Part shown: positions 9,467 to 24,931 of the stretch, one piece after another | Position numbering within the stretch: the stretch's first letter is position 1 | Layout of the letters: the number at the start of each line of letters is the position of its first letter | IMG/VR virus record: IMGVR_UViG_3300042691_038698 | Location: 1 to 32,038 of that record | Direction: 5' to 3' (one strand) | DNA: 32,038 nucleotides | DNA from: a virus | The notes under the pieces: generated by a model | Seen by the model: the letters and a program-made list of their open reading frames with translations, nothing else | What the model was told of the DNA's origin: nothing | Database searches by the model: none | Program-made: the position numbers and the translations under genes

Positions 9467-9811
9467 GTGTCTATCGTGTACGTCGTGTCCGAGACGCAGC
9501 AGCACAACATTGCGAGTGCGCAGGACTACGGACGGATTGAAACCATTCTGCCACCCAACGCGCAGATCGCTTTTTCGGTGATGCCGACAATTCGTCGCAT
9601 TCAGCGGAAACTCGACAAGTTCACCGACAATGACTACCTGTTGTTGATCGGGGACCCGTCTGCGATCGGTATTTGTTGCGCTGTGGCAGCGTCAAAGAAC
9701 AACGGTCGCTTTAAATGTCTCAAGTGGGACAAGCGAGAGCGCCGTTACATCCCCCTTGAGGTGGATCTTTACAAGAAAGGAGAGTTGGATGAGCCTTACG
9801 AACTTGTTTGA
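9467..9811 (+). CDS. Conserved phage protein, first gene of the replication operon
   Basis: This 114-residue protein uses a GTG start placed eight bases after AGGAG in the AGAAAGGAG leader. A conserved-looking core reads PTIRRIQRKLDKFTDNDYLLLIGDPSAIG followed later by FKCLKWDKRERRYIPLEVDL. I recognise this as a small protein common at the head of phage replication modules, with no assigned function. No catalytic motif is evident. It overlaps the next gene by 23 bases, suggesting coupled translation. Role in replication or its control is inferred from position only. Confidence 0.75.
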   Translation: MSIVYVVSETQQHNIASAQDYGRIETILPPNAQIAFSVMPTIRRIQRKLDKFTDNDYLLLIGDPSAIGICCAVAASKNNGRFKCLKWDKRERRYIPLEVDLYKKGELDEPYELV

Positions 9812-10340
9812 ACAGGAAGCCGAGGCACTGCGAGTCGGTGACGAGCAGGTCAGTGGTATTTCGAGCCTGGCACGTCGTGCCAAGCAGCTTTCTCGCGAGG
9901 TCGAGGACGCGGAAACGGTCCTCAAGGGCCTCAAGGATCAGTACCGCAAACTGACGGAAGAGACACTGCCCGAAGCGCTTGCCGAGACAGGCATGACGTC
10001 CTTCCGCATGGAAGACGGCAGTTCCATCACGATCAAGCCCTACTACAGTGCTTCGATCAGCGAGGCGCGGCGTGCGGAGGCCTTCCAGTGGCTGCGCGAC
10101 CGGGGCTTTGATGACATCATCAAGAACACCGTCAGTGTTCGTTTCGGTCGCGGCGAGGCGCCTCTTTGCGAGCGCCTGATCACGCTGCTGAGCGAGAACG
10201 GGTTCCGCTCCGAGGAAGCGGAAAAGGTCGAGCCCTCGACCCTCAAGGCATGGGTCAGGGAACGGGTGGAACGTGGCGAGGAGTTTCCGATGGAACTCTT
10301 CGGCGCGTACATCGGGAAGAGAGCCGAGATCAAGTCGTAA
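9789..10340 (+). CDS. Conserved phage protein with N-terminal coiled coil
   Basis: This 183-residue protein starts at the ATG at 9789, chosen because AAAGGAG lies about seven bases upstream and because the region before it is still coding for the previous gene. Residues of about 25-60 form a predicted coiled coil. A mixed domain follows (TSFRMEDGSSITIKPYYSASI), then a C-terminal motif STLKAWVRERVERGEEFPMELFG that is typical of this phage family. It is located directly before the candidate single-stranded DNA-binding protein, so a replication or recombination role is likely. No enzymatic residues are recognised. Confidence 0.75.
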   Translation: MSLTNLFEQEAEALRVGDEQVSGISSLARRAKQLSREVEDAETVLKGLKDQYRKLTEETLPEALAETGMTSFRMEDGSSITIKPYYSASISEARRAEAFQWLRDRGFDDIIKNTVSVRFGRGEAPLCERLITLLSENGFRSEEAEKVEPSTLKAWVRERVERGEEFPMELFGAYIGKRAEIKS

Positions 10341-10367
10341 CGAACCAAGGACCAAGGACCAACTAAC

Positions 10368-11141
10368 ATGGCTAATACAGAACTTGCAGAGAAAAAGGAG
10401 AGCATTGGCGCTCTCGTTCTTGCTGGCAGCTTTGAAGAGGATGCCGGCGACAGTTTCAGCGGGATGGGCCAGGACGACTTTGCCCTGCCGTTCCTCCGTC
10501 TGCTGACGAACACTTCCCCCGAGGTGGGCGAGGTCGAGGGGGCGCTGCCCGGCATGGTGTACAACAGCGTCACGGGGCAGCTCTTCGATGGCAAGAAGGG
10601 GATTGTCGTGATTCCGTGCGCGTACGTGCGTCAGTACATCGAGTGGGCGCCGCGTGGAAGCGGATCGGGAGCACCTCTCAATATCTACCCATCGACGTCG
10701 GATATCCTCTCCCGTACCCATCGCGAGCCGGGAGACAGCAAGGACTACCTGGACAACGGCAACTACATCGACAACACCGCGAACCATTACGTGATGGTTG
10801 TGGATTCGAATGGGACGCCTTCCCCGGCGCTGGTGAGCATGAAGTCCACGCAGCTGAAGAAAAGCCGCAAGTGGAACAGCATGATGCAGTCCGTGAAGAT
10901 GCAGGGAAGGAATGGCCTCTTCACGCCACCGATGTACAGCCAGTTGTATCGCCTGACCACGGTTCCCGAGTCGAACGATAAGGGCAAGTGGTTTGGCTGG
11001 GAGATCGAGCGCGTAGGCGCGGTGGATTCTCCGGAGGTTTACGCGGCGTGCAGGGCCTTCGCGCAATCCGTCAACTCAGGCGCTATCAAGGCGAAGCCCG
11101 AGGCGGAAGGCGAAGCTGCCCGCGTCGAAACCCCGTTCTGA
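10368..11141 (+). CDS. Putative ssDNA-binding / replication accessory protein
   Basis: This 257-residue protein has a central domain with FLRLLTNTSPEV, GMVYNSVTGQLF and IVVIPCAYVRQYIEW. It resembles proteins that occupy the single-stranded DNA-binding slot in many phage replication modules. The final residues EGEAARVETPF end in an acidic stretch closed by Pro-Phe, as in the protein-docking tip of bacterial SSB. The primase encoded next also ends in Pro-Phe. AAGGA occurs twice upstream of the ATG within GGACCAAGGACCA. The gene is followed by an intrinsic terminator, so it may be made at higher levels than the downstream enzymes, as expected for an SSB. The assignment rests on context and the C-terminal tip. 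Confidence 0.55.
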   Translation: MANTELAEKKESIGALVLAGSFEEDAGDSFSGMGQDDFALPFLRLLTNTSPEVGEVEGALPGMVYNSVTGQLFDGKKGIVVIPCAYVRQYIEWAPRGSGSGAPLNIYPSTSDILSRTHREPGDSKDYLDNGNYIDNTANHYVMVVDSNGTPSPALVSMKSTQLKKSRKWNSMMQSVKMQGRNGLFTPPMYSQLYRLTTVPESNDKGKWFGWEIERVGAVDSPEVYAACRAFAQSVNSGAIKAKPEAEGEAARVETPF

Positions 11142-11221: not shown

Positions 11222-12754
11222 GTGACCGACATCACCCGGTTCAAGGCGATCTTTTCCGGACTGGACATCGCCTATGGGACCTACAAAATTCAAGATACCA
11301 AGGGCAGCGGCAAGCAAGCCGGCAAGGCCGTTGTTGTGCGCAAGCCGCCGACTGACGACCTTTGGCAGAAGCATTTGCTGGGGGTCGAGCCCTCCCTGGG
11401 TATCATTCCAATCCGGGCGGACAACAGCTGTGTCTGGGGCTGCATTGACATCGACCAGTACCCTATCGACCACGCGGGTCTCGTCAAAAAGATCCGCAAC
11501 CTGAACCTGCCCCTGGTTGTCTGTCGGAGCAAGTCCGGGGGAGCGCACGTGTTCCTTTTCGTCAAGGAACCGATCCCTGCAGGGGAGATGCAGAAGTACC
11601 TGAAGGCCTGCGCGGGGCTGCTTGGCGAAGCAGGACGCGAGATCTTCCCAAAGCAGTCAGAGATCCTCGTCGAGCGTGGCGACACGGGGAACTTCCTCAA
11701 CCTCCCCTACTTCGGGGGAGACGAGACCATGCGCTACGCCTTCACTGACGAGGGCAAAGCGGCAACGCTCGAGGAGTTCTACTCGTTGTACGACCGGTTC
11801 GTACAGGACAAGGACATCGAGGCACCAGAGGGACCAAAGGCTCCCGAGGCACCTATCAAGGACGGCCCTCCCTGCCTGCAGTCGATTTGCGCGCAAGGCG
11901 TTCCTGAAGGAACACGGAACAACGCGCTGTTTAACATCGGGCTCTACCTCAAACGCGCTCACCCTGCGACATGGGACAACCTGATTGTCGAGTACAACTA
12001 TAAGTACGTGAGCCCTCCGTTACCGAACAACGAAGTGCAGCTGCTGATCCGGCAGCTCAACAAGAAGGAGTATCACTACAAGTGCAAGGACGCGCCCCTT
12101 AACGCGTTTTGCAATGGCGGGTTGTGCAGGACTCGCAAGTACGGGATCGGGGCCCACGGGCCAGACAGCCCTCAGCTTTCTGCGCTTTCCAAGTACGCAA
12201 GCGAGCCGCCTCTGTGGTTCCTTGATGTCAACAGCAAGCGTATCGAGTTGGATACAGAGAGCCTGTTCAACCAGCTGGCCTTCCAGAAAGCCTGTGTCGA
12301 GAAGCTTAACGTACTGCCGCCGACGGTCAGGCGAAACGACTGGGAACAGCTGCTGAATGCGCTGCTCACGGAGATGGTCGAGACCGAACAGATCACGATT
12401 GCGAGCGAGGACACGACGGTAACGGGGCAGTTCAACGACCTCATCGAGGAGTTCTGTACGCACCTGCAGCAGGCGATGGATCGGGATGAGATCCTGCTTG
12501 GCCGGCCGTGGACAAACGATGACGAGGGGCGCACGTACTTCCGCATGAAGGACCTCAACGCGCACCTGCTGCGTAACAACTTCAAGGCATTGACGTCTCC
12601 CAAGATGGCACAACGTGTGCGTGACCTCGGGGGAGAGCCCATCAGCCTTTTTATCAAGAATCGGGCGGTTCGGTGTTGGCGCATACCGCGCTTCGAGCGC
12701 CAGGATTCTCCTTTCTCCACGCCTGAACAGAAAAAATCCGGGAGCCCTTTCTGA
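11222..12754 (+). CDS. Archaeo-eukaryotic-type primase (TOTE-like)
   Basis: This 510-residue primase has the catalytic Asp pair in CIDID (D76, D78), the SGGAH motif with H109, and NLPYFGG, as in the AEP superfamily branch known from TOTE-type and phage primases. A C-terminal module contains CLQSICAQGVPEGTRN and FCNGGLCRTRKYGIG. Its cysteines 218, 288, 297 and 302 are placed to bind zinc or an iron-sulphur cluster. The last 180 residues are helical and unassigned, ending in GSPF. It synthesises primers for the phage polymerase. The GTG start at 11222 follows a purine-rich but weak ribosome binding site. Its stop overlaps the next ATG by one base. Confidence 0.88.
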   Translation: MTDITRFKAIFSGLDIAYGTYKIQDTKGSGKQAGKAVVVRKPPTDDLWQKHLLGVEPSLGIIPIRADNSCVWGCIDIDQYPIDHAGLVKKIRNLNLPLVVCRSKSGGAHVFLFVKEPIPAGEMQKYLKACAGLLGEAGREIFPKQSEILVERGDTGNFLNLPYFGGDETMRYAFTDEGKAATLEEFYSLYDRFVQDKDIEAPEGPKAPEAPIKDGPPCLQSICAQGVPEGTRNNALFNIGLYLKRAHPATWDNLIVEYNYKYVSPPLPNNEVQLLIRQLNKKEYHYKCKDAPLNAFCNGGLCRTRKYGIGAHGPDSPQLSALSKYASEPPLWFLDVNSKRIELDTESLFNQLAFQKACVEKLNVLPPTVRRNDWEQLLNALLTEMVETEQITIASEDTTVTGQFNDLIEEFCTHLQQAMDRDEILLGRPWTNDDEGRTYFRMKDLNAHLLRNNFKALTSPKMAQRVRDLGGEPISLFIKNRAVRCWRIPRFERQDSPFSTPEQKKSGSPF

Positions 12755-16905: not shown

Positions 16906-17089
16906 CGTCTTGTCCCCGATCATAGTGGACGGCCAGAAGCTGCCTGCCATGATCGAGATCACTGGAGTAAAGGTCGACTCTACCAAGAAGTCTAGGGGAC
17001 GAAAGGTGGACCTGCTTAACTCCCTGAGCGAGGAGCAGCTCATGCTTCTCGAGGACGACATTCTCGAGAACTACGGAAAAGAGCCATGA
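16859..17089 (+). CDS. Small unknown protein (76 aa)
   Basis: The ATG at 16859 follows CCAGGAAA inside the end of the previous gene. The product starts with beta-rich KYKTQLSLDVDITFDVL, has a central MIEITGVKVDS, and ends with an acidic helix LSEEQLMLLEDDILENY. Not recognised. Its stop overlaps the next start as ATGA, the first link in a long chain of such overlaps. Confidence 0.65.
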   Translation: MKYKTQLSLDVDITFDVLSPIIVDGQKLPAMIEITGVKVDSTKKSRGRKVDLLNSLSEEQLMLLEDDILENYGKEP

Positions 17090-17181
17090 CCGCAGTCCAC
17101 TTTTACTGCCCGCTGCGAAGGGCTTATGTGTGCTTAGTGGTTCCGGCAGAAACGGCATTTAAACTGGTGGGGTTGACATGA
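17086..17181 (+). CDS. Micro-ORF, 31 aa, ATGA-coupled at both ends
   Basis: The frame MTAVHFYCPLRRAYVCLVVP... starts in an ATGA overlap with the previous stop and ends in an ATGA overlap with the next start. Double coupling is the main evidence that it is translated. The peptide is partly hydrophobic with two cysteines. Function unknown; it may serve only to carry ribosomes through. Confidence 0.5.
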   Translation: MTAVHFYCPLRRAYVCLVVPAETAFKLVGLT

Positions 17182-17372
17182 CTCACGCGATCAAGATTTC
17201 CGATCTCGAAAAGGCGGCACTGCGCGACCGGCGAGAGCGCATTGCGACGATCATTCTGGCGGGTTTGGTGACGAGGCAGCCGTCGTATTACGAGTACGCC
17301 GTTGCAGACGCGGTGACCTATGCCGACGAGTTGATCGCGGTCCTCGACAAGCCGGAGGAGGACAAGACATGA
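17178..17372 (+). CDS. Small phage protein, RRERIA...DALIA-type (copy 1)
   Basis: This 64-residue protein has RDRRERIATIILAGL and YADELIAVLDKPEEDKT. It is a paralogue of the proteins at 21622-21906 and 21903-22190. Small proteins with this helical pattern are very common in phage accessory regions and have no known function. The sequence encoding the KPEEDKT tail contains the GGAGGACAAGACATGA ribosome-binding and coupling signal for the next gene. Confidence 0.7.
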   Translation: MTHAIKISDLEKAALRDRRERIATIILAGLVTRQPSYYEYAVADAVTYADELIAVLDKPEEDKT

Positions 17373-17566
17373 TTTTGATCCCTGTCGGGCTTTTCATGAT
17401 GTGGGCAGCGTGGCAATGCATCTTGAGACTGTCACCGGACCTTTTAGATGCGTGGTTCGGGACGGTTCTCTGCTTTGTTTATGCTTGTGGCGCGGCGGCG
17501 GCGGCAATCGGGGCGCTTTCGATGTTGCGGTGGGCTGTTTGTTGGATGCGGGAGGTAGCGCCATGA
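17369..17566 (+). CDS. Small membrane protein (65 aa, two TM segments)
   Basis: Two hydrophobic segments (about residues 3-20 and 30-52) and a short basic tail ending REVAP. It starts by ATGA overlap. The tail codons contain GGGAGGTAGCGCC, which is the ribosome binding site of the next gene. A holin-like size and topology is possible but there is no lysis gene nearby. Confidence 0.6.
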   Translation: MILIPVGLFMMWAAWQCILRLSPDLLDAWFGTVLCFVYACGAAAAAIGALSMLRWAVCWMREVAP

Positions 17567-17748
17567 TCGCAACCGGCTTTGCTTTGATGGTTGCTGCATT
17601 CGTCGTGTGGGTGCTTGTGCCGGTGCCCAATCCTGCGCCGCGTTGGAAAATCTGGGTAATCTGCTTTCCGGTCGTGATGGCGTACTGCGTCGGTTTCGTT
17701 CTGATTGCAGCCGGGATCACTCGATGGCTGTGGGAGGTAGCGCCATGA
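17563..17748 (+). CDS. Small membrane protein (61 aa, two TM segments)
   Basis: Two hydrophobic segments (ALMVAAFVVWVLVPV and a C-terminal VVMAYCVGFVLIAAGI) separated by a short basic loop; ends WEVAP. It shares its start junction and C-terminal junction with the previous gene, so the two may derive from duplication of a gene-junction unit. Starts by ATGA overlap. Confidence 0.6.
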   Translation: MIATGFALMVAAFVVWVLVPVPNPAPRWKIWVICFPVVMAYCVGFVLIAAGITRWLWEVAP

Positions 17749-18590
17749 CCGACCAACTTTGGCAACCACACGAACCAGTCCACCTCACTGCGATGTGGGT
17801 TGAACTGGAAAAATATCAACCCTATGCCGACCGTCATGGTTTTGGTGCTGAGTGGCGAACGATGTGCGAGGAGCGCACGGCGGATGCGGCGCAGGCTGCG
17901 GCGTGGGCGGCGCAGGCTGCGGCGGATGCGGCGGATGCGGCGGATGCGGCGTGGGCTGCGCAGGCTGCGGCGGATGCGGCGGAGGCTGCGGAGGCTGCGG
18001 CGGAGGCTGCGGCGAGGGCTGCGGCGTGGTATGCGGCGAGGGCTGCGGCGGAGGCTGCGGCGTGGTATGCGGCGGATGCGGGAGGTAGCGCCATGACCGA
18101 CCTTAACGAAATGTGGACGGAGTTGGAGCGTTACCAGCCGTATGCCGACAAGCGAGGGTTTGGTGAGGCATGGAAGCGAATGTGCGAGGAGCGCACGAAG
18201 ACAGCGTCTTGGGCGGCGGCGGGGGCGGCGTGGGATGCGGCGTATGCAGTAAAAGCGGCGGAGTGGGCGTATGCGGCGGCGTATGCGGCGGGGTATGCGG
18301 TAGGGGATGCGGCGTGGGCGCAACAAGCGATTGGGAAAATCCGCAAGGCCATTGAGAAGGAGCAGGAGCCAGAGGAACCGAGAGTCCTTGGTGTGCTTGA
18401 TGTTGTGCGAACTCCGAAAGGGACGCTGGCGGTGATTGACGCTGCCGACGCTGGGCATTACTCGGTTGTGTTGCCTAAGCGTCTGTTATCTGAGGGTTCT
18501 TCGGGTGAGAAAGTCGCGTGGTACACCCGCGATGAGTTGACATTCGTAGGGAAACTGGAGGACTTGGTAGAACGTCCAGGTGAGACATGA
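17745..18590 (+). CDS. Alanine-repeat protein, in-frame tandem duplication
   Basis: This 281-residue product consists of two homologous copies read in one frame. Each copy begins MTD, then MWxELExYQPYADxxGFGxxWxxMCEERT, and runs into an alanine-rich helix. Copy 1 has about 70 residues of AADAAQAAAW-type repeats. Copy 2 has a shorter Ala/Tyr/Trp stretch, then a C-terminal domain with LGVLDVVRTPKGTLAVIDAADAGHYSVV and VAWYTRDELTFVG, which may be a small SH3- or KOW-like barrel. Copy 2 has its own GGGAGG ribosome binding site and ATG at 18093, so a separate 165-residue product is also expected. Ala-rich proteins of this type occur in other phages without known function. Confidence 0.7.
   Translation: MTDQLWQPHEPVHLTAMWVELEKYQPYADRHGFGAEWRTMCEERTADAAQAAAWAAQAAADAADAADAAWAAQAAADAAEAAEAAAEAAARAAAWYAARAAAEAAAWYAADAGGSAMTDLNEMWTELERYQPYADKRGFGEAWKRMCEERTKTASWAAAGAAWDAAYAVKAAEWAYAAAYAAGYAVGDAAWAQQAIGKIRKAIEKEQEPEEPRVLGVLDVVRTPKGTLAVIDAADAGHYSVVLPKRLLSEGSSGEKVAWYTRDELTFVGKLEDLVERPGET
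17880..18079 (+). repeat. GCG-rich imperfect tandem repeat coding poly-Ala
   Basis: About 200 bp of GCGGATGCGGCG- and GCGGAGGCTGCG-like units. In the main frame it codes for an alanine-rich helix; a shifted frame codes for an arginine-rich run that would end in MREVAP and a TGA at 18094-18096. Slippage here could switch between fusion and separation of the two gene copies. Confidence 0.75.
18080..18096 (+). promoter_or_regulatory. Internal ribosome binding site and start of copy 2
   Basis: GGGAGGTAGCGCCATGA is identical to the junctions at 17550-17566 and 17732-17748. Here, unlike there, the upstream frame does not stop but reads through the ATG at 18093. Confidence 0.6.
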
Positions 18591-18718
18591 CCGAGTTCAT
18601 TCGTCAGTGGATCAACTTCAAACGGCTCGTCCGTGCTGTGCGCGACCGCGACGGCGAATGGCGACGAGTCCCTGCGCCGAACTGGGCGTGTAAACGCAAT
18701 GGGAGGGACGTGTGGTGA
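18587..18718 (+). CDS. Small basic protein (43 aa)
   Basis: Starts by ATGA overlap after AGGTGAGAC and reads MTEFIRQWINFKRLVRAVRD, then RDGEWRRVPAPNWACKRNGR. It is rich in Arg and Trp. Its stop overlaps a GTG start of the next gene as GTGA. Not recognised; support comes from coupling at both ends. Confidence 0.5.
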   Translation: MTEFIRQWINFKRLVRAVRDRDGEWRRVPAPNWACKRNGRDVW

Positions 18719-19041
18719 ATGACCGAGAAATGTTGAAACTCGCTGCGAAGGCGGCGGGGATTAGCGTTAACTGGCATGGCGACACCGACCCTTGGTGTTA
18801 TGCCGAAATTGCACCCGGCATTAAGTGGAACCCCCTCACCGACGACGGCGACAACGCCCGCCTTGAGGCAATGCTGGGCCTGAACATGATTTGGGGATCA
18901 CGGTCTGTGCGAGTGGGCCACAAGATCATTAAAGATGGCCCGACGTCCGAGCGTTACCAAGACCATGGCGGGGATCGACAGAAGGCGCGGCGGTGGGCAT
19001 CTGTGCGCGCTGCTGCCGAGATCGGGAGGGCGATGAAATGA
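18715..19041 (+). CDS. Conserved small phage protein with WNPLTDDGD motif
   Basis: This 108-residue protein has EMLKLAAKAAGI, a Trp-rich middle, WNPLTDDGDNARLEAMLGL, and a C-terminal helix RWASVRAAAEIGRAM. The WNPLTDDGDxxRL signature recurs in small phage proteins of unknown role. GTG at 18715 is chosen for its GTGA overlap; the adjacent GTG at 18712 is an equal alternative. GGGAGGGA lies upstream. Confidence 0.7.
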   Translation: MNDREMLKLAAKAAGISVNWHGDTDPWCYAEIAPGIKWNPLTDDGDNARLEAMLGLNMIWGSRSVRVGHKIIKDGPTSERYQDHGGDRQKARRWASVRAAAEIGRAMK

Positions 19042-19223
19042 AACTGCGATACGAAATCATTTTTCGTGAAGGGTACAAATACTGGACTGAACACTACATA
19101 GTGTTGTATGCCCCGCGTTGCATGAGTGCAAAGTTTCGGGGGACAGTTGCATATAAGGACTACAAGAGCGCAGAGCGAGCAGCAAAGCGCATGGGCTTTG
19201 AGCCGAGGGAGGAAAAGAAATGA
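19038..19223 (+). CDS. Small unknown protein (61 aa)
   Basis: Starts by ATGA overlap with the previous gene. The product is basic, with aromatic beta-like KLRYEIIFREGYKYWTEHYI and a C-terminal helix YKSAERAAKRMGFEPREEKK. Not recognised. The tail codons contain GGGAGGAAAAG, which serves the next start. Confidence 0.6.
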   Translation: MKLRYEIIFREGYKYWTEHYIVLYAPRCMSAKFRGTVAYKDYKSAERAAKRMGFEPREEKK

Positions 19224-19546
19224 ACCAAGGCAATGCAAAGATTACTTACCCGCAGTACAAGGAGTTCCTTGAGCGCGTCGAGGAAGCCGAAGCAACCGGG
19301 AAGAAGTTGCTCGTCAGTGAGATCGCCTACGACTGGGGCGTAAACCCGCGGACTCTTCAGCATATCCGGCAACGCGGCATCAAGAAGTACGATGCGAGGC
19401 TCCGCAAGGAACAAGCGATGGAGGAACTGAACAAAGAAGCGTGGGAGTTGTTGGGTTTGATGTACCACGCGAATAGATGTGAGGCGTCTACCGATGTACG
19501 GGGAAAAATCCGAGAGTTGCTAGACAGGAGGAACAAGTATGAGTGA
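19220..19546 (+). CDS. Putative helix-turn-helix protein (108 aa)
   Basis: After an N-terminal helix the sequence reads LLVSEIAYDWGVNPRTLQHIRQRGIKKYDARL, which fits a helix-turn-helix in which PRTLQHI would be the recognition helix. A C-terminal helix follows. It may be a regulator encoded within the chain. ATGA overlap at its start; eight-base overlap at its end. Confidence 0.55.
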   Translation: MNQGNAKITYPQYKEFLERVEEAEATGKKLLVSEIAYDWGVNPRTLQHIRQRGIKKYDARLRKEQAMEELNKEAWELLGLMYHANRCEASTDVRGKIRELLDRRNKYE

Positions 19547-19778
19547 CAACATCACGCTGCCCCGCGAGGTGGTGCAGGAGGCGGTGGAGGCGTTGGTTGA
19601 GGCCCGTGCGTTGCTGTACGACGGTCGGAAGCAGGACAAAGCAGCCGACGCCCTCCGCACCGCCCTTGCCGCCGAGCAACCGGAGCAGAAGCCGGTCGAG
19701 GCAATCCGTTTTCCAGACAGTTACACAGACCCTATATTGCTCCACGGTCATCCGCAAACGAGGTGGGATAAGCCATGA
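19539..19778 (+). CDS. Small phage protein, NITLPREVV-type (copy 1)
   Basis: This 79-residue protein starts MSDNITLPREVVQEAVEAL and continues to ALRTALAAEQPEQKP. The first half is shared with the protein at 20050-20550 almost word for word. Such TLPREVV modules followed by AL.xAL are widespread in phages and are often recombined with different C-termini. Function unknown. It carries no membrane segment. Confidence 0.68.
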   Translation: MSDNITLPREVVQEAVEALVEARALLYDGRKQDKAADALRTALAAEQPEQKPVEAIRFPDSYTDPILLHGHPQTRWDKP

Positions 19779-20053
19779 CCCGCGACGACATCATCCGCAT
19801 AGCGCAGGAGGCAGGCGCTGTCCCGTCAGGCGATCCACAAGAGTGGGATGTCTGGCTGTTCCAAGACCCTTCGATGGACCGATTCGCCGCCCTGGTTGCT
19901 GCCGAGAAGGACAAAGAGATCAAGCGACTGCAGGACATGCTGTACGAACAACTGGGCGAACTTACGGCGTTGCGGGCGGAGAAACAAATGCGTACACGCC
20001 TTGAACAACAAATGCGTGTACTCACTAAACAACTGAAGGAGGAGAAGGTATGA
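19775..20053 (+). CDS. Small phage protein, MTRDDIIR-type (copy 1)
   Basis: This 92-residue protein has the N-terminal module MTRDDIIRIAQEAG, then EWDVWLFQ and DRFAALVAAEKD, and a C-terminal coiled coil (LQDMLYEQLGELTALRAEK). The first 45 residues and the DNA beneath them are nearly identical to the gene at 21164, while the C-termini differ, a sign of module exchange. ATGA overlaps at both ends. Confidence 0.7.
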   Translation: MTRDDIIRIAQEAGAVPSGDPQEWDVWLFQDPSMDRFAALVAAEKDKEIKRLQDMLYEQLGELTALRAEKQMRTRLEQQMRVLTKQLKEEKV

Positions 20054-20550
20054 GCAACAACATCACGCTGCCCCGAGAGGTAGTGGAGCAGTTGTTGAAG
20101 ACGTTGAAAAACAGCGCGCACTGGAGTCGTTTGTATTACGGAAGCAGGGAAGTTGGTGACGCTATTCAAGCCCTCCGCACCGCCCTCGCCGCCGAGCCGA
20201 CGAAGCCCGAGCCTGTGGGCGTAATGCAAGAGTCTGATCTCCTCAAAGGTCTGGTCATCCCGGTGGTTACACAGGAGTTGCCGGTGGGAACGCTGCTCTA
20301 TGCCGCCCTTGTTGCTGCCGAGAAAGAACAGCAGATGATTGAGGCCGGATGGCGCAAGTGCGCCGTTGGTCAACGCACCACGCAGTTTTGCGGGCTGCTT
20401 GACGAAGCGGTGAAGGCCGAGCGTGAGGCGTGTGCGCTGTTTCTTGAGTCAGGTATTGATCTAAAGGGGCTTAGCCCGGGGATTCAGGCGTTCATTGTAG
20501 ACTTGTTGACGGGCTTCGCCGCCGCAATCCGCAAGCGAGGGGAGACATGA
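20050..20550 (+). CDS. Phage protein, NITLPREVV-type with long C-terminus (copy 2)
   Basis: This 166-residue protein has N-terminal MSNNITLPREVVEQLLKTL and ALRTALAAEP, shared with the gene at 19539. A C-terminal part includes LYAALVAAEKEQQMIEAGW, KAEREACALFLE and the tail AAIRKRGET. The KAEREACA and RKRGET elements also occur in the MTRDDIIR-type protein at 21164, so this looks like a mosaic of two module families. The RKRGET codons contain the ribosome binding site of the next gene. Confidence 0.7.
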   Translation: MSNNITLPREVVEQLLKTLKNSAHWSRLYYGSREVGDAIQALRTALAAEPTKPEPVGVMQESDLLKGLVIPVVTQELPVGTLLYAALVAAEKEQQMIEAGWRKCAVGQRTTQFCGLLDEAVKAEREACALFLESGIDLKGLSPGIQAFIVDLLTGFAAAIRKRGET

Positions 20551-20765
20551 TTAAACTTACTTACGAAATTTTTTGTGATTTGTGCAGCGAAGGATGCGGC
20601 ATGCAGGAGTACACATGCAACAATTACCCTTCGTTTAACTTTCCAAGACCCACGAACGATTTTTCTTATTACCTGCAAACACAACAACTAGAGTTGTGCA
20701 ACGACTGCGCTGCTCCATTAGTTGAGGCTTTACGCGAAGCCGTCCGCAAGCGAGGTGAGACATGA
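20547..20765 (+). CDS. Small Cys-rich, putative zinc-ribbon protein (72 aa)
   Basis: CDLCSEGC near the N-terminus and CNDCAAP near the C-terminus give two CxxC pairs, suitable for a zinc ribbon. The linker is aromatic. The protein ends EAVRKRGET, as do two neighbours. ATGA overlap at start and end. The ribbon is a prediction from spacing only. Confidence 0.58.
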   Translation: MIKLTYEIFCDLCSEGCGMQEYTCNNYPSFNFPRPTNDFSYYLQTQQLELCNDCAAPLVEALREAVRKRGET

Positions 20766-20977
20766 ACAGTGATCGAAGCTTTTTCACCTTTCTCTTATTC
20801 TTGGCGGCGCTGTTTGCAGTTGTGGTGACCAGTTTGCTGCTCTTGGCTTCCGCCGCGGTAGGTCGCGCCGATGACTTCCGCGAACGCTGCGAAGCGGCGG
20901 GCGGCAGGACTATTTCCACGCGTCTTGAGTTGTTGTGCATGAAGAAAGAGCAGTTTGTGGAGGTTGGACATGAGTAA
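20762..20977 (+). CDS. Small membrane or exported protein (71 aa)
   Basis: A hydrophobic stretch at about residues 7-33 (FFTFLLFLAALFAVVVTSLL) is followed by a soluble part with two cysteines (FRERCEAAGG, LLCMKKEQF). It could be a signal-anchored periplasmic peptide; the short ASAAVGRAD segment could also be a signal peptidase site. ATGA overlap at its start, eight-base overlap with the next gene. Confidence 0.58.
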   Translation: MNSDRSFFTFLLFLAALFAVVVTSLLLLASAAVGRADDFRERCEAAGGRTISTRLELLCMKKEQFVEVGHE

Positions 20978-21167
20978 CCACATCATAAGCCGTCGAAAGA
21001 TCATCAAGTGGGCGCGACAGGCTGACCGCGACTGGGATCGCGACATGAACCCGATTGCTTGGCTAGAGTTTTTCGCCGCCGACGTTCAAGCCGAGGCCGT
21101 TCGTAAAGAGCGGGAGGCGTGCGCGCGCCGTGCAGCGTCTGCAATCCGGAATGGGGGTAAGCCATGA
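20970..21167 (+). CDS. Small unknown protein (65 aa)
   Basis: ATG at 20970 follows GGAGGTTGGAC. The product begins MSNHIISRRKIIKWARQAD and ends AVRKEREACARRAASAIRNG. The KEREACA element is shared with other proteins of this chain. Not recognised otherwise. Its stop overlaps the next start as ATGA. Confidence 0.6.
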   Translation: MSNHIISRRKIIKWARQADRDWDRDMNPIAWLEFFAADVQAEAVRKEREACARRAASAIRNGGKP

Positions 21168-21415
21168 CCCGCGACGACATCATCCGTATGGCGCAGGAGG
21201 CGGGCGCTATCCCGTCAGGCGATCCCCGAGAGTGGGATGTCTGGCTGTTCCAAGGCCCTGCGATGGCCCGCTTCGCTGCCCTTGTTGCCGCTGCCGAGCG
21301 TGAGGCGTGTGCGAAGGTGTGTGACGAAATCGAACGTGGCCCTGCAATGATGATTGAGGAACGGCACACAGCGCGACAATGCGGCGCCGCCATCCGCAAG
21401 CGAGGTGAGACATGA
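21164..21415 (+). CDS. Small phage protein, MTRDDIIR-type (copy 2)
   Basis: This 83-residue protein has MTRDDIIRMAQEAG, EWDVWLFQ, FAALVAAAEREACAKVCDEI and the tail AAIRKRGET. It is the complete form of this widespread small phage family; copy 1 at 19775 has lost the second half to a coiled coil. Function unknown. ATGA overlaps at both ends. Confidence 0.72.
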   Translation: MTRDDIIRMAQEAGAIPSGDPREWDVWLFQGPAMARFAALVAAAEREACAKVCDEIERGPAMMIEERHTARQCGAAIRKRGET

Positions 21416-21444
21416 GTGGCCGTGAAGCGAAGGAGAAGAAATGA
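21412..21444 (+). CDS. Ten-residue micro-ORF between coupled genes
   Basis: MSGREAKEKK starts in an ATGA overlap and ends in an ATGA overlap. Its codons contain AAGGAGAAGAA, the ribosome binding site of the next gene. It may be a relay that passes ribosomes along or a decayed gene end rather than a functional peptide. Confidence 0.4.
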   Translation: MSGREAKEKK

Positions 21445-21539
21445 CAACCCTCAAACACTTTCTGTGCCGACTGCTGGGTCACCGAAACGACATCTTTGGC
21501 GATATACCCAATGAACAACGACGGGAGGACAAGACATGA
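21441..21539 (+). CDS. Micro-ORF, 32 aa
   Basis: MTTLKHFLCRLLGHRND and a charged tail ending RREDKT. The tail codons carry the GGGAGGACAAGACATGA junction, shared with three other sites. Coupled on both sides. Function unknown. Confidence 0.5.
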   Translation: MTTLKHFLCRLLGHRNDIFGDIPNEQRREDKT

Positions 21540-21625
21540 CTGAGAAACAACTTCTCACTGCCGTTTTTTGGGCGGTGTGTTTTTTGATAGGGCTTGTGGT
21601 TGGCGCAATCAGAGGTGGCAGATGA
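21536..21625 (+). CDS. Single-pass membrane micro-protein (29 aa)
   Basis: MTEKQLLTAVFWAVCFLIGL with VVGAIRGGR forms one hydrophobic helix with a basic C-terminus. ATGA overlap on both sides supports translation. It resembles many tiny phage membrane peptides in size only. Confidence 0.5.
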   Translation: MTEKQLLTAVFWAVCFLIGLVVGAIRGGR

Positions 21626-21906
21626 AAGAGTTTAAGATGACGATGATAGAGGCTCCCAGTCCTGGAGGCGTCGGCGCCTGCGAACAGGCAACCGTGGCTG
21701 ATTGGGGTGCGCTGGGGGTAAACACGGTTAATTGGATGGCTGAGGAGAAACGCCGAGAGCGCCGCGAGAAGATTGCGGGGATTGCGTTGCGGGGGCTGTT
21801 GGCGCAGTCGGTGTATTGGTTGCCTGAAAAAGCCGCCAAAGAGGCGGTAGAACATGCAGACGCGTTGATCGCGGAACTCGACAAGCCGAAGGAGGAGCAG
21901 GTATGA
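21622..21906 (+). CDS. Small phage protein, RRERIA...DALIA-type (copy 2)
   Basis: This 94-residue protein has an unrelated N-terminal 40 residues (MKEFKMTMIEAPSPGG...) and a C-terminal module EKRRERREKIAGIALRGLLA ... EAVEHADALIAELDKPKEEQV. The module matches the proteins at 17178 and 21903. Function unknown. The tail codons contain the AAGGAGGAGCAGGTATGA junction. Confidence 0.7.
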   Translation: MKEFKMTMIEAPSPGGVGACEQATVADWGALGVNTVNWMAEEKRRERREKIAGIALRGLLAQSVYWLPEKAAKEAVEHADALIAELDKPKEEQV

Positions 21907-22190
21907 GTAACGAGCAGACAATATGGGCGCGTTACATGGAGGACATACAACAACAGGAAAAAGCGTTAGAAGATCGGTGGAAACGCGACCGCCGCGAGCG
22001 CATTGCGGGGACTGCGTTAGAAGATCGGTGGAAACGCGACCGCCGCGAGCGCATTGCGGGGACTGCGTTGCAGGGGATGTTGGCGTACGATGGCGGGCAA
22101 CTGCCGATTGATCGGGGGGCAGTATGGGCGGTCGCACACGCCGACGCGCTGATCGCGGAACTCGACAAGCCGAAGGAGGACAAGACATGA
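21903..22190 (+). CDS. Small phage protein, RRERIA...DALIA-type (copy 3)
   Basis: This 95-residue protein has the family module RRERIAGTALQGMLA and AHADALIAELDKPKEDKT. The part ALEDRWKRDRRERIAGT is present twice in tandem because of an exact 51-bp duplication. The duplication keeps the frame and lengthens a charged helix by 17 residues. ATGA overlaps at both ends. Confidence 0.72.
   Translation: MSNEQTIWARYMEDIQQQEKALEDRWKRDRRERIAGTALEDRWKRDRRERIAGTALQGMLAYDGGQLPIDRGAVWAVAHADALIAELDKPKEDKT
21963..22064 (+). repeat. Exact 51-bp tandem duplication
   Basis: Two identical 51-bp units (21963-22013, 22014-22064) followed by the first bases of a third (GCGTT at 22065). The length equals 17 codons, so the host gene stays open. 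Perfect identity points to a very recent event or an assembly artefact. Confidence 0.9.
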
Positions 22191-22402
22191 GTGATAGCAA
22201 GCAGTCTGAGTACTTGTACGATCGGCTACGTAACTCGAACCACCAGGCGCAGCGTTACCTGCTTTCTCGGATCGGTGAGCTCGAGGAGGAGATCCTGGAG
22301 CTGCACGCGGCACGTAGCCGGGCGTTGGTTGCCGAGGTCGTCCTGGTTGTCGTGTGTTTGCTGGTAGGGTATGCCGTGGGGGTTCATTATGGTCTCGGTT
22401 GA
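22187..22402 (+). CDS. Small protein: coiled coil plus C-terminal TM helix (71 aa)
   Basis: After a polar N-terminus comes a short coiled coil (LLSRIGELEEEILELHAARS) and a hydrophobic helix (ALVAEVVLVVVCLLVGYAV) near the C-terminus. The layout is that of a tail-anchored membrane protein. No lysis partner is seen. ATGA overlap at its start. Confidence 0.62.
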   Translation: MSDSKQSEYLYDRLRNSNHQAQRYLLSRIGELEEEILELHAARSRALVAEVVLVVVCLLVGYAVGVHYGLG

Positions 22403-22598
22403 CAACGAGTCTCCGCCGGGATCCTGGCAGAAGGAGATTGAACTGCAGCCGTGGAAGTATCCGCAGCAGCAGAAGGTGGGTTGGGCGTTGTCTGAGATGC
22501 GGCTGCGCGGGCTGCTTGTAGAGGCGGATATACTCGCCCAGGAGCTCTCCACGCTACAGGCGGAGCTCTCCTTACTTCGGGCGAGGAGTTCACGATGA
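22389..22598 (+). CDS. Small unknown protein (69 aa)
   Basis: MVSVDNESPPGSWQKEIELQPW, then a helical, probably coiled-coil C-terminus (ADILAQELSTLQAELSLLRARSS). The ATG at 22389 is preferred because GGGGGT lies at a suitable distance; an ATG at 22371 in the same frame is the alternative. Overlaps the previous gene by 14 bases and the next by ATGA. Confidence 0.58.
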   Translation: MVSVDNESPPGSWQKEIELQPWKYPQQQKVGWALSEMRLRGLLVEADILAQELSTLQAELSLLRARSSR

Positions 22599-22687
22599 GT
22601 CGCAAGGCGGTACTTGAGCGGTTGCTTGGCAAGGAAGCTGCGAAGAAGTTTCTTCCCAAGCGCAAGCGCCCCCGAAAAAAGAGATGA
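22595..22687 (+). CDS. Highly basic micro-protein (30 aa)
   Basis: MSRKAVLERLLGKEAAKKFL followed by a run of Lys, Arg and Pro to the stop. ATGA overlap with the previous gene and an upstream GCGAGGAG support translation. It could bind nucleic acid. It is the last gene before the next promoter. Confidence 0.5.
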   Translation: MSRKAVLERLLGKEAAKKFLPKRKRPRKKR

Positions 22688-22758: not shown

Positions 22759-22989
22759 ATGGAAGATCACACAGGTGTTGCGTTTGCTGCGTTTATCACA
22801 GGGATCGTTTTGTTCCTGTTGGGCGTGCTGGGGCTGATGGCCTACGAGATCCACATGCGCGCGAAGGTCATTGCCGGGTCTTCGGACCCGATAGCGGCCG
22901 CTTGTGCGTACGACGGTCCGGCGGGACGCGACGGCGTGCCCTCGACCTGCCTCACTTACCTTTTCCGTAACCAGGAGTTTTCACGATGA
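22759..22989 (+). CDS. Small membrane protein (76 aa, one TM)
   Basis: MEDHTGVAFAAFITGIVLFL and LLGVLGLMAYEIHM form a long N-terminal hydrophobic helix; a Cys-containing soluble tail follows. ATG at 22759 sits seven bases after AGGAG; an ATG three bases upstream is possible. First gene of its transcription unit. ATGA overlap with the next gene. Confidence 0.62.
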   Translation: MEDHTGVAFAAFITGIVLFLLGVLGLMAYEIHMRAKVIAGSSDPIAAACAYDGPAGRDGVPSTCLTYLFRNQEFSR

Positions 22990-23561
22990 GTCGTTTGAAG
23001 TCGAAGAGCGCCAAGAGCTCGAAGCGTGTCAGGGCCGGGAAGCGGGGCGAGAAGAGTGCCCGGGTGCTGGCGTGGTTTCAGGCCAATCCGGGCGCCAAGG
23101 TGGCAATAGTGGCTCGGCGCTGCGGCGTGTCGCTGCCGCTGGCGTACAAGATCCGCAACAGCCTCCGGGCGGATGCCGCCCTGCGGGAGCAGGGTCAGCA
23201 GGCTCCCGAGCAGGTGGAGGAGGCTCCTGCCTCTTCGCCACTGGTGGTCTTTCCCGAGGTCGCTGTTGACGGTTCCGTGCCGGTCCTCTCGTCGACGGAG
23301 TCGCTTCTTGGCGCTCGGGCCACGACCCACGGGACTTTCTGTGTAACGGCTCGGCTCTCGCAGGCGCTCAAGCGCACGCTGGCCGAGCATGCGCGGGACG
23401 TCGGCAAGGACTTCACGGACGACCAGTGGGAAGCGCTCGAGATGGTGGCGACCAAGCTTGCGCGGATCGTCAGCGGCGATCCGGACACGCGGGAGCACTG
23501 GGACGACATCGCGGGCTACGCGACGCTCGTGTCGGATCGGCTGCGGGGGATTGTCCGGTGA
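22986..23561 (+). CDS. DUF6378-like phage protein with N-terminal HTH-like region
   Basis: This 191-residue protein has a basic N-terminus (about 25 residues), then VAIVARRCGVSLPLAYKIRN, which may be a helix-turn-helix. A linker rich in Gln, Glu and Pro follows. The C-terminal domain has WEALEMVATKLARIVSGDPD and HWDDIAGYATLVSDRL, typical of the DUF6378-like family in phages; the family call is from memory. Its stop overlaps a GTG as GTGA. The last 70 bases lie in a 101-bp tandem duplication. Confidence 0.7.
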   Translation: MSRLKSKSAKSSKRVRAGKRGEKSARVLAWFQANPGAKVAIVARRCGVSLPLAYKIRNSLRADAALREQGQQAPEQVEEAPASSPLVVFPEVAVDGSVPVLSSTESLLGARATTHGTFCVTARLSQALKRTLAEHARDVGKDFTDDQWEALEMVATKLARIVSGDPDTREHWDDIAGYATLVSDRLRGIVR

Positions 23562-23693
23562 GGCCGGCAGTCCCTTCGACGCCGGAGCCGCCGGAGCACT
23601 GGGACGACATCGCGGGCTACGCGACGCTCGTGTCGGATCGGCTGCGGGGGATTGTCCGGTGAGGCCGGCAGTCCCTTCGACGCCGGAGCCGCC
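23492..23693 (+). repeat. Exact 101-bp tandem duplication across a gene junction
   Basis: Units 23492-23592 and 23593-23693 are identical, with GGAG at each boundary (23492, 23593, 23694) as microhomology. The unit spans the end of the DUF6378-like gene and the beginning of the next gene, including their GTGA overlap. Because 101 is not a multiple of three, the copies are read in different frames. Confidence 0.92.
23558..23662 (+). CDS. Chimeric 34-aa ORF made by the 101-bp duplication
   Basis: A GTG start in the first repeat copy opens the frame of the downstream gene (RPAVPSTPEPP), which at the repeat boundary continues into the end of the upstream gene (EHWDDIAGYATLVSDRLRG). It stops in the second GTGA overlap. 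It is coupled at both ends. Probably a by-product of duplication and not selected for function. Confidence 0.45.
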   Translation: MRPAVPSTPEPPEHWDDIAGYATLVSDRLRGIVR

Positions 23694-23895: not shown

Positions 23896-24128
23896 GCGCC
23901 CCTGTCGTCAAGTTCGTGCCGGTGGACGACCTTCCGCTGGTTCAGCTGTTGATCATCACGATCAACGGGACGCAGTACGCGCTCGTCGGGCCCGTGATCC
24001 ACGTTCCAGGGAACAACCCGTCTTTCAATATCACCGAGATCGAGTTCGGTGACATCCTGCCCGCGAGCGCCGCGGCGCGGATGTTGGAGGGGGCGTTTCG
24101 GGAGCACATGGGCTCGAAGGTGCAGTGA
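23892..24128 (+). CDS. Small unknown protein (78 aa)
   Basis: ATGA overlap at its start. Beta-rich sequence with PLVQLLIITINGTQYALVGPVIH and FNITEIEFGDILPASA, then a C-terminal helix. Compact globular fold likely. Directly precedes the dioxygenase gene with a one-base overlap, so a shared role is possible but unproven. Confidence 0.62.
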   Translation: MSAPVVKFVPVDDLPLVQLLIITINGTQYALVGPVIHVPGNNPSFNITEIEFGDILPASAAARMLEGAFREHMGSKVQ

Positions 24129-24931
24129 TGGGCTCCGCGGACATCGACCGATGGATCCGGGAGCAGCACGGGGCCGGCCACTCGCGTAACCAGCTGTTAC
24201 ACCAGCTGATCACGTACGGGTGGTCGGCGCCTGTGGCCGAGAAGGCGCTGGCCGCCGTGCTCGGTGAGCCTGGGCCGGCGGTGCCGCAACAGCGGGAGGT
24301 CGAGATCGAAGGGCACCGCGTGGAGGTGCTCGTGAACCTCCAGCAGCCCCGCTTCGCCTACCTGCGCGGGCTGCTTACCCGGGAAGAGTGCGAGGCGCTC
24401 ATCGAAGCGGCTCGGCCACGACTCGTCCCCTCCGCCGTTGTGGACTCCGAGACAGGAGGGAACGTGCCCCACGCCGCGCGCGTGAGCGACGGCATGGCGT
24501 TCGAGGTGGGGGAGCTGCCGCTGCTCGATCGGATCGAGTGGCGGATACAGGGCCTTGTGTCATGGCCCATGGGCCACGGCGAGGCTATCCAGGTCCTGCG
24601 GTACCGCCCCGGCGGCCGCTACGACCCCCACTTCGACTATTTCGACCCCAAGGTGCCAGGCTCGAGCCGGCCACTGGCCCAGGCGGGCAACAGGGTGGGG
24701 ACGCTGATCATGGTCCTGCAGGCGCCGGAGACGGGCGGGGAGACGGTGTTTCCTGATGCAGGGCTCACGGTCCACGGGCGCCAGGGGGACGGGATTCTGT
24801 TCACCTACGGGCGCCCTGACCCGTCCACGAAGAGCCTCCACGGGGGCTCGCCGGTGGTCCGGGGGGAGAAGTGGATCGCCACGAAATGGTTTCGAGAGTC
24901 AGAATATTCGGTTGCGCGGCCGCCTCCCTAG
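24128..24931 (+). CDS. Prolyl-4-hydroxylase-like 2OG-Fe(II) dioxygenase
   Basis: This 267-residue enzyme has the iron ligands H168-F-D170 in YDPHFDYF and H238 in SLHGGSPV, and K248 in GEKWIATKW, placed ten residues later to bind 2-oxoglutarate, as in P4H. LRGLLTREECEALIE and VLQAPETGGETVFP are further family marks. The first 45 residues form a small helical domain (WIREQHGAGHSRNQLLHQLI) often found in bacterial P4H homologues. It should hydroxylate a prolyl residue using oxygen and 2-oxoglutarate. The substrate is unknown; a PPGG-rich virion protein is encoded at 1179-3209. ATG at 24128 is preferred over GTG at 24125. A terminator follows. Confidence 0.9.
   Translation: MGSADIDRWIREQHGAGHSRNQLLHQLITYGWSAPVAEKALAAVLGEPGPAVPQQREVEIEGHRVEVLVNLQQPRFAYLRGLLTREECEALIEAARPRLVPSAVVDSETGGNVPHAARVSDGMAFEVGELPLLDRIEWRIQGLVSWPMGHGEAIQVLRYRPGGRYDPHFDYFDPKVPGSSRPLAQAGNRVGTLIMVLQAPETGGETVFPDAGLTVHGRQGDGILFTYGRPDPSTKSLHGGSPVVRGEKWIATKWFRESEYSVARPPP

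Follow-up and report, generated by a model that had tools for sequence, protein, structure and literature searches.

Why do small phage genes with no evident kinship end in the same few codons, and could such endings explain how genes enter and leave an operon without breaking it? The question is raised by a virus record of 32,038 bases (IMG/VR record IMGVR_UViG_3300042691_038698, positions 1 to 32,038; hereafter the window), in which a variable cassette of small genes lies head to tail and several genes close with one of three short junction words, read as REVAP or WEVAP, RKRGET and KPKEDKT-like peptides. A preliminary description of this DNA had proposed that the words carry the ribosome binding site of the next gene and act as connectors, through which genes can be inserted or shuffled with coupling kept. 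Comparison with related and unrelated viruses makes it fairly probable that the cassette consists of modules running from ATG to ATG, whose last codons serve the next gene and whose shared words act as patches of homology.

Junction words and overlapping genes

All three junction words are repeated in the window above shuffled expectation: GGGAGGTAGCGCCATGA occurs exactly three times (shuffles: mean 0.12, largest 2), GCGAGGTGAGACATGA twice exactly and once with one mismatch, beside a kindred RPGET end, and GGAGGACAAGACATGA three times exactly. The search for this last type allowed three mismatches, and the 21891 site (four, counted by eye) falls outside it. The repetition noted earlier is real, except that the third copy of GGGAGGTAGCGCCATGA is no gene end: it is read as GGSAM in an open frame where the second copy of the 17745 gene begins, and so marks an in-frame fused tandem duplication.

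Genes were called with a simple caller of our own that sets no penalty on 4-nt overlaps. From 17086 to 22595, 20 of 24 consecutive gene starts overlap the preceding stop by 4 nt (ATGA), and at most cassette junctions a run resembling a Shine–Dalgarno (SD) sequence lies within the end of the upstream gene.

Which gene carries the ribosome site

Junctions for comparison (454 ATGA joints) came from relatives of the window's polymerase and were not selected by word; near-duplicate loci were removed for the pair counts. The 14 bases before the ATG match at 12 or more positions in 148 of 450 between-genome pairs in which only the upstream genes are homologous, in 26 of 57,024 pairs with homology on neither side, and in none of the 291 in which only the downstream genes are homologous. 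The match tracks upstream and not downstream homology: the ribosome site goes with the gene upstream. The first expectation, that the site travels with the gene it serves, is rejected as the main mode by the 0 of 291; 138 of 324 downstream-conserved pairs nonetheless retain 2–30 nt of upstream sequence. Since the site serving a gene sits in the gene before it, the functional unit extends from one ATG to the next and comprises the gene body and the following SD.

Breakpoints and inserted modules

Of 576 pairs with conserved upstream and different downstream sequence, 507 lose similarity 4 to 9 bases beyond the A of ATG, 258 of them at exactly 4, ATGA itself being forced to match; among 324 reverse pairs similarity begins at 0 or −1 in 181. 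Neither these pairs nor the events described next are independent, some sharing a locus or contig. A search for insertions and deletions (indels) that presupposed no joints, made among the polymerase relatives, gave 113 partly redundant empty sites, with 29 of the indels no more than 5 nt from an ATGA joint (random expectation 1%) and 40 no more than 15 nt away (4%). Breakpoints at the junctions were a check that the preliminary description had named; by these counts, breakpoints in gene content are concentrated at ATGA joints.

A second search, which did presuppose ATGA boundaries, yielded 30 distinct, partly overlapping comparisons of occupied and empty sites, in which the inserted stretch, set between ATGA joints, holds 1 to 11 genes. 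The two joints share an identical word of 19–27 nt including ATGA in 6 of the 30, 11–15 nt in another 6 and 4–8 nt in 18. In this last class the empty site is more like the left word in 16 of 18 comparisons, which indicates that the insert brought its own tail, the ribosome site for the gene after it. The same short sequence at both module edges, with one copy in the empty site, is seen in relatives (the 6 of 30) and not in the window itself.

In the proposed mechanism, the end of a small gene does double duty: its last codons are also the SD of the next gene, and the ATG of that gene forms ATGA with the stop. Any ATG-to-ATG module could enter at any ATGA joint without disturbing either reading frame or the coupling, and a word standing at two joints (18–27 nt with ATGA) would offer a homology patch for the gain, loss or swap of a module. 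The double coding, the limits of the modules and the sharing of words are observed; we infer that ribosomes reinitiate at the joint, that translation is coupled across it and that recombination takes place at the word; the window cassette would be one genome's version, with its own private words. This amounts to a rule for gaining small genes without breaking operons, in which the module carries the ribosome site of its successor and not its own, and may help to explain how phages swap small genes with their operons intact.

Words shared by other viruses

Uncultivated phages show the arrangement generally. Searching phage genomes for the junction words, to see if different genes stand on either side, was the other check named beforehand. 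It succeeds with two words whose tails are akin to the window's RKRGET end, but not with the window's own. Word A, GCAAGGGGACAAGCATGA (tail ARGQA), and word B, GCAAGGGGTGAGCAATGA (tail ARGEQ), both of 18 nt, are each present in at least 120 stretches of IMG/VR. Contexts were grouped for 120 loci per word (the first word A tests used 80 of the 120), upstream and downstream groups being formed by single-linkage blastp, a method that can lump or divide families. Of the 125 distinct contexts of word A, 119 have an upstream open reading frame (ORF) of at least 33 aa; 9 of these stand apart from the main group. Word B has 127, 112 of them with such an ORF, and 30 fall into 13 minor groups, two of which (L413 and L414) resemble the main family by eye. 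In all, there are 10 upstream and 56 downstream groups for word A and 14 and 28 for word B; distinct upstream/downstream pairings number 60 of 116 and 40 of 106, respectively, and 30 single genes have the same word at both ends. At four word A sites (L194, L231, L233 and L253) the word is readable in a frame running into the next gene, as at window 18080.

Of the 35 full records, possibly fragmentary, that contain these words, only 3 encode a relative of the window's polymerase, so that the words are not confined to the window's phage group. Copies in the same record are always on the same strand, and the reversed control gave none.

Words are also shared within single genomes. For same-genome pairs with no homology on either side, 7 of 1,332 match at 12 or more of the 14 bases; the figure between genomes is 26 of 57,037, and column shuffles average 0.22. 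With the window excluded, 3 of 1,185 pairs reach this level (null 0.095) and 7 have identical spacers (null 0.25); none of 1000 shuffles reaches either count.

A broader reading is offered tentatively, at somewhat less than even confidence: uncultivated phages of different lineages may share a small vocabulary of 18–24-nt coding words that end one gene, launch the next and serve as homology patches, and single-gene cassettes bounded by the same word may circulate between phages as interchangeable ATG-to-ATG bricks.

Descent, selection and chance

In the window itself, part of the sharing is plain descent. Paralogy by blastp (E 1e-11 to 1e-15) links the KPKEDKT genes beginning at 17178, 21622 and 21903, and the 20050 and 21164 genes have in common a C-terminal EREACA...AAIRKRGET region (E 0.011). 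About half of the sites, namely two RKRGET ends out of three and three KPKEDKT-like ends out of four, can be put down to homology of the upstream gene; it does not cover every case, which was the outcome that the preliminary description had set against itself. Its statement that the genes are unrelated is only partly true. Blastp detected no paralogy between gene 21441-21539, with its REDKT end, and the other EDKT genes, and the RKRGET end of 20547-20765 is, at the sensitivity used, unexplained by homology, the best match being the 20050 gene (E 0.077). One relative of 20547-20765 ends AAIRARGNT (L036) and another ends differently (L022), as if the tail had been swapped. The eight distant relatives of the KPKEDKT family have varied ends, and for the REVAP pair 17369/17563, once the last six residues are removed, 111 of 2000 shuffles score as well.

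Several observations weigh against the connector reading. The window's own words are not found elsewhere beyond chance level: the exact RKRGET word (a 21-base pattern with two free positions) occurs in no stretch of IMG/VR and GGGAGGTAGCGCCATGA in 13 other contigs, in 6 at the end of an in-frame ORF of at least 28 aa, so that these words are no common currency and look private to this genome. Most word sites elsewhere belong to one upstream family (110 of 119 for word A, 82 of 112 for word B), so that descent explains most of the sharing. In the indel search that presupposed no joints, 67 of the 113 indels have no ATGA joint within 50 nt, and breakpoints at ATGA could result from nothing more than selection for genes that are intact and coupled. 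Phage DSL-LC04, the nearest named relative, has ATGA joints and no repeated words beyond one duplicated end, and the excess of sharing within genomes is real but small without the window.

In a rival account the words are passive: SDs arise from the ATGA overlap, related genes keep related ends, and breakpoints look precise only through selection against exchanges that damage a gene or its ribosome site, with no recombination directed by the words. Descent within the main family speaks for it, as do the unselected indels near ATGA, which mostly share only about 4–12 nt at the boundary. However, six of the occupied/empty comparisons are bounded by the long identical words, same-genome sharing exceeds its null, and unrelated upstream genes share a word far above a control in which only the spacer of word A was permuted (3 stretches with 4 sites, no site being preceded by an in-frame ORF of 33 aa or longer; the control was made for word A alone). 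Passive words are on balance unlikely, though a serious contender. The earlier claim that the junctions are connectors is partly supported: gene-content breakpoints at ATGA and precise insertion units fit it, whereas the window's own words are not in common use, much of the sharing is upstream homology and one of the quoted sites is no gene end.

Repeated convergence on a few good ribosome sites could be invoked for the 13 contigs with GGGAGGTAGCGCCATGA, but permuting the word A spacer alone cuts the number of stretches from at least 120 to 3, and the word A match extends upstream of the SD; this explanation is largely contradicted and very improbable.

What holds the gene end in place

Codon choice bears on what constrains the gene end, and the 21164-21415 gene provides the material. 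It belongs to a large family in uncultivated viruses (at least 400 relatives in IMG/VR, of which 80 were kept; the tail was part of the query by which they were ranked). By eye, about 70 of the 79 members that could be read end in AIRARGxx or a close form, mostly followed by an overlapping start, and the genes after them differ. For codon counts, 110 coupled AIRxRG tails were taken from loci not picked by word, excluding 7 that the caller left uncoupled. They comprise 56 different tail peptides, overlap the next start by 4 nt in 98 cases and have AGG at the second Arg in 78%; the share is 2% for the first Arg and 5% among 511 internal Arg codons (Fisher 1e-35 and 5e-59). In 90 of the 110, the distance to the next start is 11 nt. 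In L129, L152 and L168 the stop codon is shifted and the SD-to-start distance is kept. The AGG bias and the distance kept despite moved stops argue that the tail is held at least partly by a role in RNA.

AIRARG may also matter to the protein, being conserved at the residue level in the family. That the tail is kept for the protein, for example as a C-terminal signal, is nevertheless highly improbable, given an AGG-rich second Arg beside a free first one and stops that move while the SD spacing stays. The family protein has no match among named phages at E 0.01, and its residues 1–59 have one relative among the matches listed for genome contigs.

A dedicated integron-like site-specific system would suit single-gene cassettes with a repeated 3' element, but five word forms tested have no inverted repeat with arms of at least 4 and no integrase was found among 10 window proteins scanned in Pfam (the record is a fragment), and such a system is highly improbable.

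ATG-to-ATG modules would account for the same end peptide on unrelated small phage proteins. Such C-termini should not be taken as protein domains or as homology, and the junction words provide a sequence handle for cassette boundaries in metagenomes.

Features of the window and its setting

The polymerase of DSL-LC04, from Dishui Lake, is 77.8% identical to that of the window. The gene order is polymerase, two conserved small genes, a variable interval and a third conserved small gene near 22595; in relatives with both ends located, the interval measures 0.4 to 3.3 kb. The flanking genes (first, second and last) were matched in 48, 63 and 11 of 93 fetched loci, and those between them mostly in none or few. 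Scans of 10 cassette proteins gave no match in Pfam and two weak matches in PHROG, with no useful name.

Table 1. Junctions, genes and related features of the small-gene cassette, in window coordinates
Feature	Position	Strand	Remarks
Variable cassette, about 24 small genes head to tail	17086..22687	+	20/24 junctions are 4-nt ATGA overlaps
Junction word GGAGGACAAGACATGA	17357..17372	+	Exact; ends 17178-17372 (KPEEDKT); SD for 17369-17566; upstream gene paralogous to 21622 and 21903 genes
Junction word GGGAGGTAGCGCCATGA	17550..17566	+	Exact; ends 17369-17566 (REVAP); SD for 17563-17748
Junction word GGGAGGTAGCGCCATGA	17732..17748	+	Exact; ends 17563-17748 (WEVAP); SD for 17745-18590
Fused tandem duplication (MTDQLW..., MTDLNE...)	17745..18590	+	Ala-rich stretch per half; frame open across word
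GGGAGGTAGCGCCATGA inside fused ORF 17745-18590, read as GGSAM	18080..18096	+	Start of second tandem copy
RPGET end AGGTGAGACATGA, akin to RKRGET word	18575..18590	+	2 mismatches
RKRGET junction, end of 20050-20550	20535..20550	+	1 mismatch
RKRGET junction, end of 20547-20765 (Cys-rich protein)	20750..20765	+	Exact
Gene of MTRDDII...EREACAK...AIRARG family	21164..21415	+	At least 400 relatives in IMG/VR
RKRGET junction, end of 21164-21415	21400..21415	+	Exact
10-codon mini ORF MSGREAKEKK	21412..21444	+	Links two SD-bearing joints
REDKT junction, end of 21441-21539	21524..21539	+	Exact; gene without detected similarity to other EDKT genes
KEEQV variant junction, end of 21622-21906	21888..21906	+	Looser form, four mismatches by eye
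KEDKT junction, end of 21903-22190	22175..22190	+	Exact

A nine-codon mini ORF, MKPDTYKLI, follows a RARGET or RARSET tail in two other loci (L115 near 1405, L143 near 3632) and, like 21412-21444 in the window, may be a pure linker. The fused ORF has low-complexity Ala-rich stretches of AAD, AAW and AAE units at 17876-18080 and 18200-18320. Local duplication is also seen elsewhere: gene 21903-22190 holds an exact 51-base tandem duplication (21963-22064); the end WDDIAGYATLVSDRLRGIVR is present twice in 23480-23662 (ORFs 22986-23561 and 23426-23662), which suggests one more; and two genes of DSL-LC04 (L301, at 14464 and 14756) end in RIGTKKFYKVKE and RIGARKFYKVKE, a duplicated gene end. Outside the cassette, the window encodes a 2OG-Fe(II) oxygenase at 24125-24931 (PF13640, E 1e-13) and, at 9756-11141, two genes akin to the Pam3 phage gp33 and gp34 families (PF23984, PF23977).

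Comparison with known systems

The preliminary description knew no name for this arrangement, which is only partly right, as there are close precedents. The closest printed case among those compared is that of genes 67 and 68 of mycobacteriophage Island3, which are adjacent and have a common 60-bp 3' end, and of which a near-identical phage lacks one (Pope 2011, PMC3029335). As here, the last codons of a gene that has no homologues recur in the gene upstream, and the extra gene is absent from a near-identical genome, as if the shared ends had recombined. Unlike here, it is a single case of about 50–60 bp, and nothing in the section concerned presents the common end as a ribosome site for the following gene or as a word that many families reuse across phages.

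The start-associated sequences (SAS/ESAS) of Cluster K mycobacteriophages follow one 13-bp consensus with an SD core, in many copies per genome (PMC3203893). A short SD-core word just upstream of the starts of different gene families is common to both systems; SAS/ESAS are described, in the text available, by the downstream gene, whereas here there are many words, lying inside the upstream gene and following it. The Cluster K consensus GGGATAGGAGCCC is absent from the window: its one match, with two mismatches, at 12143, is at chance level (0.79 expected).

In lambdoid phages, short conserved boundary sequences have been a subject of work. Such sequences are also named in connection with phage mosaicism (PMC3029335). 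They resemble the present words in placing short homology at module edges as exchange points, and differ, so far as that source describes them, in that the boundary here is coding and a ribosome site, and the unit a single small gene. Coupling at ATGA is in general well known. Overlapping ATGA gene pairs with termination–reinitiation have been described (PMC6728339); the overlap is the one seen at the cassette junctions and coupling is expected here too, but that work, in the portion available, concerns coupling and not gene exchange at the joint. Mobile regulatory cassettes of T4-type phages are the subject of Arbiol 2010. There too a short regulatory element between genes is said to mediate shuffling; those elements are reportedly promoter stem-loops, whereas the ones here are coding ribosome sites.

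A literature search, mostly without subscription papers, found no account of a shared coding ribosome-site tail as an exchange boundary. What the present analysis adds to these systems is a boundary that lies in coding sequence, serves as ribosome site for the next gene, goes with the gene upstream and is shared by unrelated genes in many phages.

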